From assembly GCF_030407495.1 (NCBI RefSeq), contig NZ_JASDDG010000028.1, forward strand, positions 1 to 64,000: a DNA stretch of 64,000 nt, in the 5' to 3' direction. The DNA comes from Arthrobacter sp. APC 3897 (GTDB taxonomy: Bacteria > Actinomycetota > Actinomycetes > Actinomycetales > Micrococcaceae). The notes beneath the pieces were generated by a model. It was not told the DNA's origin. It was given only the letters and a program-made list of their open reading frames with translations, and ran no database searches. The position numbers and the translations under genes are program-made. Below are positions 15,712-27,520 of the stretch, piece after piece. Positions within the stretch are counted from its first letter, which is position 1, and every line of letters starts with the position of its first letter.

Positions 15712-15800
15712 GTGCAGATCAAGGGCTCAAAAAGGCATTCTCGGGGGTCTTGGCCCCGTCATCTGCACGAGAGACTTTTGATGTCCCCGGATCTGCACGA
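15712..15800. repeat. Three ATCTGCAC elements in an intergenic gap
   Basis: The 335-base gap between the ATPase start and serA holds no gene. It carries ATCTGCACGA twice in direct orientation (15761-15770 and 15791-15800, 30 bases apart) and GTGCAGAT inverted at 15712-15719, which can pair with the first copy. The C-rich flanks are also alike (CCCCGTC and CCCCGG). It could be a regulator site or a remnant of an intergenic repeat. Confidence 0.45.
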
Positions 15801-15835
15801 AGGATGGTCCGGGGCCGGCTAAGGCCAAGAAACCG

Positions 15836-15872
15836 GCAGGGACCGGCCCGCCGAAACGGAACCGGTCCCTGC
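15836..15872 (-). terminator. Probable serA terminator
   Basis: An 11-base-pair stem, GCAGGGACCGG (15836-15846) and CCGGTCCCTGC (15862-15872), with a 15-base loop lies 42 bases past the serA stop. On the minus strand it is followed by a weak T-rich stretch (GGTTTCTTGG). Confidence 0.6.
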
Positions 15873-15914
15873 TGCCCGTGGTGCTGCCGCCGGCGATGGA
15901 GCCGCAGTGCGGAA

Positions 15915-17510
15915 CTAGCCCTGCAGGTCCACTTCGCGGACCACGGTGGCGCCGATTTCGGTGCGCAGGGTTTCCAGCACGTCCTGCGGGACGGAGGAAT
16001 CCACGGTCAGCAGCGACAGCGCCTGGCCGCCCTCTGTGCTGCGGGCCACCTGCATGCCTGCAATGTTGATGTCCTTCTCGCCCAGGATCCGGCCCAGGGC
16101 ACCGATGACGCCGGGACGGTCGGCGTAGATCAGCACCAGCAGGTGGTCGCTGATCGGGATTTCCAGGTCGTAGCCGTTGACGCCTACGAGCTTTTCGATC
16201 TGCTTGGGACCTGTCAGGGTGCCGGCGACTTCCAGCTGGGTGCCGTCCGAGAGCGCGCCGCGGATGGTCAGCACGTTGCGGTAGTCATCCACATCCGGGG
16301 TCTTGAGCAGACGCACCTCGATGCCGCGCTGCTCGGCCAGGACCGGAGCGTTCACATAGGAGACCTGTTCGGACACGATATCCGTGAAGATGCCCTTCAG
16401 TGCTGCCAGTTCCAGCGCCTTCACGTCCAGCGCAGCGATCTCGCCGGCCACCTCAATGTCGATGGCGGTAACGGAATCGGAGGAGAGTGCGGTGAAGATG
16501 CGTCCGAGCTTTTCGATCAGCGGAATCCCCGGGCGGACGTCCTCGGCAATGATGCCGCCGGCTACGTTCACGGCGTCGGGCACCAGTTCCCCGGCCAGGG
16601 CCAGGCGGACGGACTTCGCCACGGAGACGCCGGCCTTTTCCTGGGCTTCCGCGGTGGAGGCGCCCAGGTGCGGGGTGACAATGACGTTGTCCAGGGCCTG
16701 GAACGGCAGGTCGGTGGAGGGCTCCTTCACAAAGACGTCCACGCCGGCGCCGGCGATCTTGCCTTCGGTGAGCGCCGTGAAGAGGGCGTCTTCGTCCACG
16801 AGGCCGCCGCGGGCCACGTTCACCACGTAGGCGGTGTCCTTCATCTTGTCGAAGGCCTCCGCGCCGAGCATACCCAGCGTCTCGGGGGTCTTGGGCATGT
16901 GGATGGTGACGAAGTCCGCCTGCTCCAGCAGCTCGTCCAGGGTCACCAGCTTTACATTGAGCTGGGCGGCCCGGGCGGGGGTGATGTACGGGTCATAGGC
17001 AAGAATTTCGGTGCCGAAGCCCTGCAGCCGGGCGGCCACCAGGGCGCCGATGCGGCCCAGGCCGATGATGCCGATCTTCTTTTCATACAGCTCAGTGCCG
17101 GAGTACTTGGAGCGCTTCCACTCGCCGCCCTTGAGCGCGGCGCTGGCCTGCGGGATATGGCGGGCCAGGGACAGGATGTGGCCGACGGTCAGTTCGGCGG
17201 CGGAGATAATGTTCGACGTCGGAGCGTTGACCACCATGACACCGGCCTGGGTGGCAGCTTTGATGTCCACGTTGTCCAGACCGACACCTGCCCGGGCAAT
17301 GACCTTGAGGTTCTTCGCGGCGGCGATGGCTTCGGCATCCACCTGGGTCGCGGAACGCACCAGGATGGCATCCACATCCGCAATGGCGGAGAGCAGCTGC
17401 GAGCGGTCCGCTCCGTTGGCGGAACGGATCTCGAAGTCCGGGCCCAGGGCCTGGACCGTGGCCGGGGAAAGTTCTTCCGCAATAAGTACGACGGGTTTGG
17501 TGGCTGTCAC
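15915..17510 (-). CDS. serA: D-3-phosphoglycerate dehydrogenase
   Basis: The 531-residue enzyme oxidises 3-phosphoglycerate in the first step of serine synthesis. It has the long three-part form: catalytic and NAD-binding domains (GLGRIGALVAARL near 150, GGLVDEDAL near 240), an intervening ASB domain, and a C-terminal ACT domain (HLLVLIYADRPGVIGALGRIL) through which serine usually inhibits the enzyme. The GTG start at 17510 was chosen for AAAGAGG seven bases upstream; the frame stays open 21 codons further but without homology. It follows ilvC, from which a hairpin at 17572-17609 separates it. Confidence 0.95.
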   Translation of the reverse strand: MTATKPVVLIAEELSPATVQALGPDFEIRSANGADRSQLLSAIADVDAILVRSATQVDAEAIAAAKNLKVIARAGVGLDNVDIKAATQAGVMVVNAPTSNIISAAELTVGHILSLARHIPQASAALKGGEWKRSKYSGTELYEKKIGIIGLGRIGALVAARLQGFGTEILAYDPYITPARAAQLNVKLVTLDELLEQADFVTIHMPKTPETLGMLGAEAFDKMKDTAYVVNVARGGLVDEDALFTALTEGKIAGAGVDVFVKEPSTDLPFQALDNVIVTPHLGASTAEAQEKAGVSVAKSVRLALAGELVPDAVNVAGGIIAEDVRPGIPLIEKLGRIFTALSSDSVTAIDIEVAGEIAALDVKALELAALKGIFTDIVSEQVSYVNAPVLAEQRGIEVRLLKTPDVDDYRNVLTIRGALSDGTQLEVAGTLTGPKQIEKLVGVNGYDLEIPISDHLLVLIYADRPGVIGALGRILGEKDINIAGMQVARSTEGGQALSLLTVDSSVPQDVLETLRTEIGATVVREVDLQG

Positions 17511-17571
17511 CGGTGACCTCTTTAGCTGTGGTGGATTCTGGTGGGGATCTTGGTGAAGCGTTTTTCTGCGC

Positions 17572-17609: not shown

Positions 17610-17718
17610 ACCGAAACGGCTTGCTGTTTTCGAGCTTATCGTTTCGCTGTTGGGCGCACTTAATCGTGTGCTCTGTGTTACCGGCAGGTTACCGGCTCAC
17701 CTGCAATGGCAGGGCTGC

Positions 17719-18753
<1,035 letters not shown>

Positions 18754-18810
18754 CTACTGAAGTTTGTTGCTGTCTTGGATAAAGGTTGGGGTCGGAACGG
18801 CAGCGAAGGC

Positions 18811-19326
18811 CTAGGCGGTGCGCAGGTGCGCACGGTCGCCCATGGACTTGGAGCCGCGGCCAATGGCCAGCGTTCCGGATTGAACTATTTCGCGGATGCC
18901 AAAGGGTTCAAGCACTGCAAGGAGTGCGTTGAGCTTTTCGGCGGTGCCTGTGGCTTCAACGATCAGCGAGTCGGTGGACACGTCAACCACGGAAGAACGG
19001 AACAGCTCGGCTGCCTGGGTTACCTGCAGCCGGGTTGCGGCATCCGCGCGAACCTTGACCAAGATGTGGTCGCGTTGCACGGAAGACTCGGGAACCAGCT
19101 CGACAATCTTGATGACATTGACGAGCTTGTTCAGTTGTTTGGTGACCTGCTCCAGCAGGTCGCCTTCGGCCTCAACCACCACGGTGATGCGGGACAGTCC
19201 CGGCACTTCCGAGGGGCCCACGGCCAAAGAATTAATGTTGAATGCCCGGCGGGCAAACAGGGACGCAACGCGGGTCAGGACACCGGGAACGTCTTCAACC
19301 AGTACGGAAAGGGTGTGGCGTGCCAT
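18811..19326 (-). CDS. ilvN: Acetolactate synthase small (regulatory) subunit
   Basis: The 171-residue subunit binds and activates IlvB and confers feedback inhibition by valine. The N-terminal ACT domain starts with TLSVLVEDVPGVLTRVASLFARRAFNINSL, the family signature, and a second domain (RDHILVKVRADAATRLQV onward) completes the IlvN/IlvH form of about 170 residues. The ATG lies 4 bases after the ilvB stop and its ribosome site, GAGGAGGAC, is inside the end of ilvB, so the two are translationally close. Confidence 0.96.
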   Translation of the reverse strand: MARHTLSVLVEDVPGVLTRVASLFARRAFNINSLAVGPSEVPGLSRITVVVEAEGDLLEQVTKQLNKLVNVIKIVELVPESSVQRDHILVKVRADAATRLQVTQAAELFRSSVVDVSTDSLIVEATGTAEKLNALLAVLEPFGIREIVQSGTLAIGRGSKSMGDRAHLRTA

Positions 19327-19330
19327 GGCC

Positions 19331-21238
19331 CTAGTCCTCCTCTTCCCAGGTGGGTGTCATGTTGCGGGCAATCTGGATCAGGTCATTGGACACGCCGGAG
19401 GGAACCATCGGCCACACCATTGAGTCGCGGCTGACCACAAAGTCGATGACCACCGGGCGGTCGTTGATCGCCAGGGCCTGGCGGATGGTGTCGTCAATGT
19501 CCTCTTCGCGCTCGCACCGCAGACCGGCGCAGCCGTAGGCGTCAGCGAGCTTCACGAAGTCCGGAACCCGGACAGTGTCATGGCCGGTATTCAGGTCCGT
19601 GTTGGAGTAGCGGGATTCGTAGAAGAGGGTCTGCCACTGCCGCACCATGCCCAGCGAGGAGTTGTTGATGATGGCAACCTTGATCGGGATCTTGTTGATC
19701 AGGCAGGTGGCCAGTTCCTGGTTGGTCATCTGGAAGCAGCCGTCGCCGTCAATGGCCCAGACCACGCGGTCCGGGTTGCCAACCTTGGCACCCATGGCTG
19801 CAGGCACCGAATAACCCATGGTGCCCAGGCCGCCGGAGTTCAGCCAGGCGCGGGGACGCTCGTACTTGATGAACTGCGCGGCCCACATCTGGTGCTGGCC
19901 CACGCCGGCCACGTACACACCGTCCGGTCCGGTCAGTGCACCGATGCGCTCAATGACCTTCTGCGGGGCAATCTGGCCGTCCTCGGGTTCGCTGTAACCC
20001 ATCGGGTAGGTTTCGCGGAGCCGGTCAATGACCTCCCACCAGGGCGAAATGTCGGGACGCTCGACGGCGAACTGGGTACGGACGGCGTCGCAGAGTTCAG
20101 GAATGATCTCCTTGACCGACCCGACAATCGGCACGTCCGCAGGCCGGTTCTTGGAAATCTCGGCGGGGTCGATGTCCGCGTGGATGACCTTCGCTCCGGG
20201 CGCGAAGGAGGACAGGACGCCGGTGACCCGGTCATCAAAGCGCGCGCCCAGCGTGATGAGCAGGTCCGACTGCTGCAGGGCCGTGACCGCCGAAACGGAA
20301 CCGTGCATACCCGGCATGCCCGCGTGCTGGCGGTGCGAGTCGGGGAAGACGCCGCGGGCCTGCAGCGTGGTGACGACGGGCGCACCCACCAGTTCCGCCA
20401 GTTCCAGCAGCTCTGCGGAGGCATTTGCCTTCAGTACGCCGCCGCCTACGTAGAACACGGGGCGGTGGGAGGCCGCGATCAGGCGTGCGGCTTCGCGCAC
20501 CTGCTTGGAGTGGCCGCGGACAACGGTGCGGTAGCCGGGCAGATCAATCCGGGGCGGCCAGGAGAACGTGGTCCTGGCCTGCTGGGCGTCCTTGGAGATG
20601 TCCACCAGCACCGGACCGGGGCGGCCTGTGGTGGCAATGTGGAAGGCTTCTGCCAGGACGCGGGGAATATCATCCGCGTTGGTGACCAGGTAGGAATGCT
20701 TGGTGATGGGCATCGTGATGCCCACGATGTCCGCTTCCTGGAAGGCGTCGCTGCCGATGAAGGCGCTGGAGACCTGGCCGGTGATGGCCACCATGGGAAC
20801 CGAGTCCATATGGGCGTCTGCCAGGGCGGTGACCAGGTTGGTGGCGCCGGGCCCGGAGGTGGCGATGCAGACACCGGCCTTGCCGGTGACCATGGCATAC
20901 CCCTCCGCAGCGTGTCCGGCTCCCTGTTCGTGGCGAACCAGGATGTGCCGGAGCTTGGTGGAATCCATGAGCGGGTCATACGTCGGAAGAATGGCTCCGC
21001 CGGGCAGGCCGAAGATGTCCTCAACTCCCAGCTCTTCCAGTGCCCGGACAATGGCCTTGGAGCCGGTCATCTCAGTGGGCGGAACAACGTTGTTGGGGCC
21101 CTGCACCCGGGTGTCCACGGCTTCGGACGAAACGGAAACGGAAGAGGCAACATCACGTGTCTTGGCCGCGGCTGCCTTGGCGGCAACGCTGGCCTTGCTG
21201 GCCATCAGCGACGGGCTGATTGGCGATCCCTTACTCAT
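19331..21238 (-). CDS. ilvB: Acetolactate synthase large (catalytic) subunit
   Basis: The 635-residue thiamine-diphosphate enzyme condenses pyruvate with pyruvate or 2-oxobutyrate, the first common step of branched-chain synthesis. The activating glutamate is in [15 protein letters not shown], and the thiamine and magnesium motif is [30 protein letters not shown] near residue 480. An N-terminal tail of about 50 Ala/Ser-rich residues precedes the homology, longer than in enteric enzymes but common in actinobacteria. The ATG follows AAGGAAG. Expression is probably controlled by the leader peptide and terminator encoded at 21335-21442. Confidence 0.96.
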
Positions 21239-21334
21239 AAAATCTTCCTTACGGATACTTATTCATGTGATCTGCTGCGACGGCCGGCCGGGCGATAGGC
21301 CCGGGACGGCTTTTCTGCTTTTGTCTGAGCCAAT

Positions 21335-21371
21335 AAAAAAACCCCTCGTGCCGGTTGGCTCCGTAGGGGTT
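21335..21371 (-). terminator. Attenuator terminator of ilvBNC
   Basis: On the minus strand a 7-base-pair stem, AACCCCT (complement of 21365-21371) and AGGGGTT (complement of 21340-21346), with an 18-base loop is followed at once by a run of seven T. It lies 29 bases after the leader peptide stop and about 100 bases before the ilvB ATG. A terminator between leader ORF and structural gene is the hallmark of ribosome-mediated attenuation. Confidence 0.85.
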
Positions 21372-21400
21372 CGCGCGTGACGTTCTTGCAAGCTCGGCGG

Positions 21401-21442
21401 TTAGGCCACGCGCTTGGTAAGGACGACGGGTACGATCTGCAT
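21401..21442 (-). CDS. ilvB leader peptide (attenuator)
   Basis: The minus strand encodes the 13-residue peptide MQIVPVVLTKRVA, ending in TAA. Six of the 13 residues are branched-chain: one Ile, four Val and one Leu, the end products of the pathway that ilvBNC serves. AAAGGG precedes the ATG by one base, rather close, so start by a leaderless mRNA is also possible. Stalling at these codons under branched-chain amino acid shortage would favour an alternative fold and prevent the hairpin at 21335-21371 from forming. Too short for usual gene finding; identified from codon content, position and the terminator. Confidence 0.85.
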   Translation of the reverse strand: MQIVPVVLTKRVA

Positions 21443-21472
21443 GCCCTTTAGTCTTCCCGTCCCCTGCGGGGG

Positions 21473-21478
21473 TGTCAA
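21473..21478 (-). promoter_or_regulatory. Probable -35 of the ilvB promoter
   Basis: The minus strand shows a perfect TTGACA. The leader ATG lies 30 bases downstream. A convincing -10 is not visible; GACTAA or AGACTA at 18-19 bases spacing is the nearest candidate. Confidence 0.5.
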
Positions 21479-21480
21479 AC

Positions 21481-21502
21481 TAATGAGACCGGCGTCTCAT
21501 TA
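21481..21502. promoter_or_regulatory. Dyad TAATGAGAC-n4-GTCTCATTA upstream of ilvB
   Basis: A perfect 9-base inverted repeat around the 4-base spacer CGGC lies 2 bases upstream of the ilvB -35. Size and location fit a dimeric regulator's operator; which regulator is unknown. Confidence 0.6.
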
Positions 21503-21503
21503 T

Positions 21504-21520
21504 GTGGACAAGGTGTCCAC
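21504..21520. promoter_or_regulatory. Dyad GTGGACA-n3-TGTCCAC upstream of ilvB
   Basis: A perfect 7-base inverted repeat around AGG directly follows the first dyad. The two sites are in tandem about 5-45 bases upstream of the -35. Confidence 0.55.
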
Positions 21521-21646: not shown

Positions 21647-23350
21647 TCAGCCGCAGTAGGCGCCGGTGGAGGCGGAGTTGACCAGCTTGGTGTACTTCCC
21701 GAGGACGCCGGTGGTGAACTTTCCGGGCAGCGGCTTCCAGCCGACCTTCCGGGATTCCAGCTCGGCTTCGTCAACCAGCAGGTCAAAGGTGCGCGCGGCG
21801 ATGTCCACGCGGATCCGGTCGCCGTCCTTCACGAAGGCGATGGGACCGCCGTCGACAGCTTCCGGAGCCACGTGGCCGATGCACAGACCCGTGGTGCCGC
21901 CGGAGAACCGGCCGTCGGTGAGCAGCAGAACATCCTTGCCCAGTCCCGCTCCCTTGATGGCACCGGTGATCGCGAGCATTTCGCGCATGCCCGGTCCGCC
22001 CTTGGGGCCCTCATAGCGGATGACGACGACGTCGCCGGCGTGGATTTCTCCGTTGTCGAGGGCATCCAGTGCTCCCTGTTCACGTTCAAACACACGGGCG
22101 GTGCCTTCGAAGACGTCGGCGTCAAAGCCGGCGCTCTTCACCACGGCGCCTTCCGGCGCCAGGGAACCGTGCAGGACGGTGATGCCGCCGGTCTTGTGGA
22201 TGGGGTTGTCCATGGCGCGCAGAACCTTGCCGTCCGGATCCGGCGGGTTGATGGACGCCAGGTTCTCCGCAACGGTCTTGCCCGTAACCGTGAGGCAGTC
22301 GCCGTGGATCAGGCCGGCGTCGAGCAGTGCCTTCATGATCACCGGCACGCCGCCGATCTTGTCGACGTCATGCATCACATACCGGCCGAAGGGCTTCAGG
22401 TCGCCCAGGTGCGGAATCCGGTCACCGATGCGGTTGAAGTCCTCGAGCGTCAGGTCCACGTGAGCCTCGCGGGCGATGGCCAGCAGGTGCAGGACCGCGT
22501 TGGTGGAACCGCCGAAGGCCATGGTGACGGCAATCGCGTTTTCGAAGGCCTTCTTGGTCATGATGTCGCGGGCGGTGATGCCCTTGCGCAGCAGGTTGAC
22601 CACGGCTTCGCCGGACTTGCGGGCGAACTCGTCGCGCCGGCGGTCTGCCGAGGGCGGCGCCGCGGAGCCGGGAAGGGACATGCCCAGGGCTTCACCGATG
22701 CATGCCATGGTGTTGGCCGTATACATGCCGCCGCAGGCACCCTCGCCCGGGCAGATGGCACGTTCGATGGTGTCCAGGTCCTTGAGGCTCATCTTGCCGG
22801 CGGCACAGGCGCCTACAGCTTCAAAAGCGTCAATGAGCGTCACTTCGCGCTCGGTGCCGTCTTCCATCTTGGCGAAGCCGGGCATGATGGAACCCGCATA
22901 GAGGAACACACTGGAGAGGTCCAGGCGCGCCGCGGCCATCAGCATGCCGGGCAGGGACTTGTCGCAGCCGGCCAGCAGGATGGACCCGTCCAGGCGCTCG
23001 GCCATCATCACGGTTTCCACGGAGTCGGCAATGACTTCACGCGACACCAGGGAAAAGTGCATGCCCTCATGTCCCATGGAAATGCCGTCGGACACCGAGA
23101 TGGTGCCGAACTGCATGGGGAAACCGCCGCCCGCGTGGACGCCTTCCTTGGCGCCCTGGGCCAGGCGGTTCAGGGACAGGTTGCAGGGAGTAATTTCGTT
23201 CCAGGAACTGGCGACGCCGATTTGCGGCTTGGCGAAATCGTCGTCCCCCATCCCGACCGCCCGGAACATGCCGCGGGCCGGGGCTGCATGGATCCCGTCG
23301 GTGACTACTCGGCTTCGGGGTTTGATGTCAGGGGTATTCTCCGCACTCAT
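21647..23350 (-). CDS. ilvD: Dihydroxy-acid dehydratase
   Basis: The 567-residue iron-sulfur enzyme dehydrates dihydroxy acids to the 2-keto acids of valine and isoleucine synthesis. Conserved pieces include the [18 protein letters not shown] segment, the cysteine in [33 protein letters not shown] near residue 90 and the C-terminal [19 protein letters not shown]. Length is typical of the IlvD/Edd family. No ribosome site precedes the ATG; TAAGAT lies six bases upstream, indicating a leaderless message. It is on the same strand as ilvBNC but is separated by a hairpin and the ilvB promoter region. Confidence 0.96.
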
Positions 23351-25557: not shown

Positions 25558-25633
25558 GCACCTCTAGCTCAATTGGCAGAGCATCTGACTCTTAATCAGA
25601 GGGTTCCGGGTTCAAGTCCCGGGGGGTGCACCA
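25558..25633 (+). tRNA. tRNA-Lys (CTT), copy 1
   Basis: A full cloverleaf is readable: acceptor GCACCTC with GGGGTGC, anticodon arm TCTGA-CTCTTAA-TCAGA giving anticodon CTT, T arm CCGGG-TTCAAGT-CCCGG, and an encoded CCA end. A TAATGT hexamer about 65 bases upstream may be the -10. Confidence 0.97.
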
Positions 25634-25904: not shown

Positions 25905-25980
25905 GCACCTCTAGCTCAATTGGCAGAGCATCTGACTCTTAATCAGAGGGTTCCGGGTTCAAGTCCCGGGGGGTGCACCA
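25905..25980 (+). tRNA. tRNA-Lys (CTT), copy 2
   Basis: Identical in all 76 bases, CCA included, to the copy at 25558-25633. Its upstream region shares TGGTAAYGTT, TGTCGTTGCGGA and CAAATCG with the first copy, so promoter and gene were duplicated together. Confidence 0.97.

Positions 25981-27435: not shown

Positions 27436-27520
<85 letters not shown>

Follow-up and report, generated by a model that had tools for sequence, protein, structure and literature searches.

The closest described relatives of the element reported here are the leaders of branched-chain amino acid operons in actinobacteria. In Corynebacterium glutamicum, the ilvBNC transcript starts one base from the ATG of a leader peptide, Val-to-Ala changes in this leader abolish the valine response, and the terminator has been tested (PMC11857589). 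The ilvB-II motif was defined in Corynebacterium, with an upstream ORF (uORF) over a hairpin, P1, followed by a terminator hairpin, P2, and ilvB downstream (PMC10272879). For the IlvL leader of ilvBHC in Streptomyces lividans, leaderless transcription and a terminator have been reported (PMC8079986), and in Mycobacterium tuberculosis, the ilvB1 attenuator has been tested, with early termination seen by end sequencing (PMC13236596). ilvB leaders with terminators have been predicted in Corynebacterium, Mycobacterium, and Streptomyces, and the same source cites the Streptomyces coelicolor ilvB leader, in which changes of the candidate control codons were reported to have no effect (PMC1262725). 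By analogy, this last result would count against an attenuator reading.

The element analyzed here lies on the minus strand of a 64,000-nucleotide stretch of the genome of Arthrobacter sp. APC 3897 (the window), and it is read with good confidence as a ribosome-mediated transcription attenuator of ilvBNC, which very probably lets the bacterium sense its own supply of valine, leucine, and isoleucine. The regulated gene is ilvB (19331 to 21238, minus strand), encoding the acetolactate synthase large subunit (NCBIfam NF005860, E value of 0), with AAGGA preceding its ATG. Downstream of ilvB on the same strand are frames that we take, from their translations, to be ilvN, encoding the small subunit (18811 to 19326), and ilvC, encoding ketol-acid reductoisomerase (17719 to 18744), and then a serA-like frame, likewise named from its translation. 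ilvD (21647 to 23350) ends about 200 bases upstream of the leader region, also on the minus strand, and the 408-base gap between ilvD and ilvB holds the leader frame, a terminator hairpin, and seven T. Long open frames on the plus strand at 17650 to 19434 (antisense to ilvC and ilvN) and 15750 to 17516 (antisense to the serA-like gene) have no NCBIfam match and are probably a composition effect of G+C-rich DNA. The window also carries two tRNA-Lys (CTT) genes (25558 to 25633 and 25905 to 25980), which have equal Rfam scores and a spacing of 347 bases, and a tRNA-Leu (TAG) gene (27436 to 27520).

The leader peptide MQIVPVVLTKRVA is encoded by a 42-base frame, read directly from ATG to TAA (21401 to 21442, minus strand), which contains four Val codons, one Ile codon, and one Leu codon; the candidate control codons are ATC, GTA, GTC, GTC, and CTT. 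An earlier note, made from the letters of the window, had placed this frame, a stem, and seven T between ilvD and ilvB, had given the same codon count, and had put the stem 29 bases past the leader stop; its coordinates and counts were right, and the gap measured 29 to 31 bases. It had also taken valine to be the main signal, yet the control codon nearest to P1 is CTT, for leucine. When the 408-base gap was shuffled 2,000 times with dinucleotides preserved, a comparable leader arose in 12 shuffles and a leader with a terminator in none; the arrangement is not a product of chance. The comparison with relatives that the earlier note had called for found the leader in every genus genome searched, 29 in all (the window's own plus 28 congeners), with the pattern MQ(I/K)V(P/S/T)VVL(T/I/S)(K/Q)RVA, and, with changes, across the family and the class.

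Codon choice in these leaders is biased. Leucine is encoded by CTT in 29/29 genus leaders versus 9/195 codons in five neighboring genes, and valine by GTA in 29/116 versus 10/216 codons in the same five genes. Outside the family, GTA makes up 50 of 101 Val codons in the leaders, and CTT makes up 32 of 81 Leu codons, with the common CTG at 7/81. In sensitive attenuators, a particular synonymous codon choice is expected, which is not simply that of the rarest codon (PMC1183508). By eye, the last control codon before P1 in the family leaders mostly ends in TT (CTT, GTT, or ATT), which an RNA constraint could alternatively have caused. A short frame with biased codons for the operon's product, conserved in 29/29 genus genomes, is what is looked for in an attenuator.

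Three features described here go beyond the earlier note, namely, hairpin P1, the promoter spacing, and an upstream inverted repeat. A −35 hexamer, TTGACA (21473 to 21478, minus strand), is followed after 17 bases by AAGACT (21450 to 21455), assigned as the −10 element by its spacing, and seven bases separate AAGACT from the leader ATG, so that the transcript is predicted to start at about 21443, which suggests a leaderless leader. The tetramer TGAC stands at −35 or −36 relative to the start codon in 29/29 genus genomes, and with a range of −34 to −36 it was found in 29/29 genus genomes, 31/32 other family members, and 30/40 leaders outside the family; a Shine-Dalgarno-like core was found in 1/29, 2/32, and 6/40, respectively. 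Simple promoter and terminator scans picked up no promoter at the leader region and no terminator there on the minus strand. Likewise, the fold of the window leader, taken as a single sequence, had a z score of −1.58 against shuffles, 13/200 of which folded equally well. The single fold is only modestly better than shuffles; the case is carried by conservation.

The 5′ arm of P1, GCGCGTGGC (21405 to 21413, minus strand), overlaps leader codons 10 to 13, and its 3′ arm, GTCACGCGC (21373 to 21381), ends 3 bases before P2, an intrinsic terminator hairpin (21342 to 21369; fold, −16.8 kcal/mol), so that the ilvB-II layout is present in the window, with the frame covering the P1 5′ arm and ending just inside the loop. 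P2 is followed by a T7 tract (21335 to 21341) and ATTGGC (21329 to 21334), which is identical in 29/29 genus genomes and for which a pairing partner was looked for and none was found. In many other families, short TG-containing words were seen by eye after the T run. P1, P2, and the T run are nearly constant across the 29 genus genomes. In 40 leaders outside the family, aligned by fitting to a covariance model (R1) built from 35 family leaders, 12 of the 17 pairs changed on both sides, in 67 cells; none of 500 shuffles reached this number, and all slides gave lower counts. Within the family, 12/17 pairs changed in this way in 19 cells, falling to 2/9 P1 pairs and 1/8 P2 pairs in an unfitted alignment. 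An alignment-free partner-swap test compared the pairing of each segment with its own partner and with the partners from other species. In 76 leaders outside the family, with the P1 arm chosen by sequence, it gave z scores of −15.3 for P1 and −14.0 for P2; this set takes in four leaders preceding the citramalate synthase gene (cimA) and omits four others, two for want of a located terminator (L191 and L222) and two in which the pattern found no arm (L189 and L190). Within the family (17 genera, alignment-defined arms), the p values were 0.015 for P1 and 0.0003 for P2. Comparison of the sequences thus points clearly to selection on both P1 and P2, and a covarying terminator with its T7 tract stands between the leader and the first gene, as in an attenuator.

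In the family, 197 genomes were searched and 60 upstream regions were taken, of which 32 had leaders clear by eye; these 32 formed the set for folding and promoter work. R1 was run on 30 of the 60 regions (28 others and 2 of the 32) and matched 16, 14 of them new, for a total of 46/60. Across the order, R1 matched 167/297 genomes from 59/94 genera, the window's own genome giving a single match and 130 genomes none; across the class, it matched 192/394 genomes from 75/138 genera, with none in 202 genomes. The E values of both searches are rough. Among 40 class matches chosen across families, ilvB was directly downstream in 36 and citramalate synthase in 4; in 40 order matches, the flank was too short for the downstream gene to be seen. 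Of 80 named ilvB loci, 37 matched, all on the sense strand and upstream of ilvB, including loci from Arthrobacter, Paenarthrobacter, Lentzea, Actinomadura, Cellulomonas, Nocardioides, and Mycolicibacterium; among the same 80, R1 matched 0/12 nonactinobacterial loci and none of the Bifidobacterium, Actinomyces, Microbacterium, or Corynebacterium records. A control described in three actinobacterial genera is thereby extended with one searchable model to roughly half of the sampled class genomes. No report of an attenuator in an Arthrobacter ilvB leader was found in the literature searched, which excluded most subscription journals.

The window element shares with the C. glutamicum attenuator and the Corynebacterium ilvB-II motif a Val/Leu/Ile-rich leader, leaderless transcription (here predicted), the control codons CUU and GUA, a P1 over the leader end, a P2 terminator with a U run, and the same operon (PMC11857589 and PMC10272879). 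The sequence, however, appears to differ from that in Corynebacterium, and R1 did not match the single Corynebacterium record tried (L362). In the Corynebacterium work, the models have an antiterminator that overlaps the terminator, whereas no such overlap was seen in the window element. The S. lividans ilvBHC leader has also diverged in sequence from that of the window, and a peptide identical to its IlvL, MRTRILVLGKRVG, occurs in one class match (L216) (PMC8079986). The M. tuberculosis ilvB1 system resembles the window in its branched-chain amino acid uORF and in the terminator before ilvB1NC; it differs in belonging to another family, and its antiterminator is a predicted fold (PMC13236596). 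The window element adds a member to a kind already known from C. glutamicum, S. lividans, and M. tuberculosis. The enterobacterial ilv leader attenuators have the control-codon logic in common with it, but they are Shine-Dalgarno led and have clear mutually exclusive hairpins.

The four class matches not before ilvB precede citramalate synthase (NCBIfam TIGR00977, E values of 1.6e-59 to 2.3e-74), with scores of 202 to 251 bits, which are below the whole-protein cutoff of 450 and come from scans of N-terminal parts only. Citramalate synthase commits carbon to isoleucine. The four leaders are MHSSSIIIRERVDV, MTIHRIIIARRVG, VTQFATIISGRVG, and VTTVIIIS. A sample of 50 cimA upstream regions was assembled from the best 30 loci and 20 chosen ones, and leaders were taken by a filter that accepts Ile, Val, or Leu runs alike. 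The filter returned a leader in 39/50 regions, including the plainly spurious L284, which has no Ile run, and with L292 cut by a contig end; an Ile run was present in 35/50, spread over many families of the class (cimA regions L255 to L283 and L285 to L304), versus 2/76 of the remaining leaders from outside the family (36 confirmed to lie before ilvB and 40 unchecked). Against the best 30 cimA loci, R1 matched 24 at an E value of ≤0.0083. In the 35 Ile-run leaders, the P1 loop is 3 to 16 bases long and P1 abuts P2 without a gap in 25/35, so that a classical antiterminator would have little space at cimA; the arms were taken from each sequence's own fold, which biases the test in favor of P1 and P2 and to the disadvantage of any other pair. 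The cimA search of the window's own genome gave no match, and no report of an isoleucine-type cimA leader attenuator was found in the literature searched, again without most subscription journals. The cimA version amounts to a natural codon swap, in which the RNA parts are kept and the amino acid and the gene are changed. Codon identity tracks the regulated pathway, as in an attenuator, and to judge from these leaders, the switch from Val and Leu codons to Ile codons supports codon-sensing attenuation.

In the proposed mechanism, RNA polymerase would start at or next to the ATG, and a 70S ribosome would begin on the leaderless transcript. With ample charged Val-, Leu-, and Ile-tRNAs, the ribosome would finish the leader and leave at the stop codon, after which P1 would close over the leader end and the adjoining P2 would end transcription. 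When these tRNAs are short, the ribosome would stall, and when its A site holds codon 7 or 8 (GTC or CTT), it would extend into the P1 5′ arm, a stalled ribosome covering about 13 bases downstream; P1 would be blocked, termination would drop, and ilvBNC would be transcribed. A stall at codons 3 and 4 would not reach into P1. The state of P1 would be the natural readout, because a stall at codon 7 or 8 would cover its 5′ arm and a ribosome that has finished would free it. We infer the stalling, the leaderless initiation, and the lower termination without P1, and P1 might act on P2 by pausing RNA polymerase, by stacking on the terminator, or through a short-lived, species-specific antiterminator.

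The hairpin and T run could be the terminator of ilvD, a same-strand gene whose end is some 200 bases upstream, with the short frame incidental; this is highly improbable given that ilvD and the leader are separated by a promoter spacing that is conserved, that the element precedes ilvB or cimA in distant genomes, and that the leader codons are conserved and biased. A riboswitch binding a metabolite or ppGpp, with the frame secondary, has a precedent in the ppGpp riboswitches that control ilvB in some Firmicutes (PMC10272879). We nevertheless consider it very unlikely here: no Rfam family reached the threshold in the window leader or in 10 related loci, where only chance-level matches lay below it, the conserved parts are codons and two simple hairpins, codon identity tracks the gene, and in the same report, in-line probing of a Corynebacterium relative gave no ppGpp effect (PMC10272879). 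That the locus serves to make the peptide, as a small functional protein, would fit the good conservation of the KRVA end across the genus and much of the family. It is scarcely credible, however, since in L103, L104, and L118 an earlier stop removes all or part of the KRVA end from the peptide, while L103 and L104 keep GCGC and L118 keeps GCGCGTG as RNA for P1, and the rest of the peptide sequence drifts.

The attenuator of the earlier note held up in the conservation of the leader, in its codon bias, and in the Ile codons at cimA; its proposal that stalling switches on an antiterminator was not supported, as folding and swap tests gave no robust sign of a conserved, mutually exclusive antiterminator. 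When the ribosome was modeled on the final control codon, the window terminator was still favored by 10.2 kcal/mol. Across 89 distinct leaders (L191, in which no terminator was located, and duplicate sequences being dropped), occlusion folding gave a mean terminator advantage of 8.9 kcal/mol when the ribosome was stalled versus 8.8 kcal/mol when it was at the stop codon, and in 22/89 leaders stalling took more than 1 kcal/mol off this advantage. In the stalled state, the advantage was 8.9 kcal/mol with real loops versus 8.1 kcal/mol with shuffled loops (Wilcoxon p of 0.0008). These folding models leave room for a transient, short-lived antiterminator. Three other pairings were tried and rejected. 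Upstream RNA with the P2 5′ arm, at a stage when the 3′ arm is still to be transcribed, showed no consistent change whether the ribosome was stalled or not; the P1 3′ arm with the sequence after the T run gave p values of 0.009, 0.70, and 0.03 in three swap tests and was not robust; and leader codons with the P1 loop gave p values of 0.015 and 0.007, which are not significant given 16 to 18 tests each. Outside the family, no further pair covaried robustly in the swap tests, the lowest p value being that 0.007 for leader codons and the P1 loop among 16 tests.

Within the Micrococcaceae, a classical four-segment attenuator is conceivable but rather doubtful, in which a box after the stop codon, CYGGU, would pair, on stalling, with P2 across its loop and 3′ side (ACCGG..GAGGGG). 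A like pairing has been drawn for Corynebacterium (PMC10272879), and a swap test in 17 genera gave p values of 0.008, 0.024, and 0.04 for three alignment-defined cuts, with 78% of cells pairing versus at most 55% when slid; the antiterminator equals the terminator in L036 and comes within 3 kcal/mol of it in L075 and L077. In 20 genera, however, with five leaders whose loop core is unaligned (L090, L107, L108, L113, and L119) dropped, the p values were 0.04, 0.08, and 0.41 depending on the cut (0.41 for the wide cut). An earlier swap test gave a p value of 0.095 with L036, whose box is intact, standing for the genus. This earlier test had been favorable to P1 by picking the P1 arm by its own pairing and to an in-family antiterminator by representing the genus by L036 alone; the later runs remove both biases. 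Column counts for the box and the P2 loop were no higher than in shuffles, the pairing was not seen outside the family (p of 0.96 and 0.99 in two swap tests), and duplexes of the loop with P2 reached a p value of <0.05 against shuffled loops in 3/42 distinct leaders. The window's own box is CUUG, which pairs poorly with the P2 loop (−1.7; p of 0.9 versus shuffled loops). Sequence support for an antiterminator inside the family is thus weak.

Attenuation by a stalled ribosome acting on P1 may instead take an antiterminator-free form. We tentatively propose a single Actinomycetia module, made up of a leaderless control-codon peptide, P1, and an abutting P2, which would serve ilvB with Val and Leu codons and cimA with Ile codons, a stall preventing P1 and P1 making P2 effective; this stays well short of being the probable arrangement. 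The comparative data bear on a standing puzzle, that of the S. coelicolor codon changes without effect and of no agreed antiterminator, because they point to clear selection for two hairpins and give no robust sign of a third.

Beside the −35 hexamer lies a TCCACATAATGAGAC box with the inverted repeat TAATGAGAC-GCCG-GTCTCATTA (21481 to 21508, minus strand), which is possibly an operator, the site of a repressor or an activator. The box TCCANATNNTGAGAC occurs beside the −35 hexamer, and its pattern was found without mismatch somewhere in 26/29 genus genomes. It is similar to the NdgR consensus of S. coelicolor (PMC4340878). An NdgR-type operator reading was set aside on finding that the second site in the genome is not at leuCD; this second site is flanked by upp and by a frame that has a response-regulator-type DNA-binding domain.
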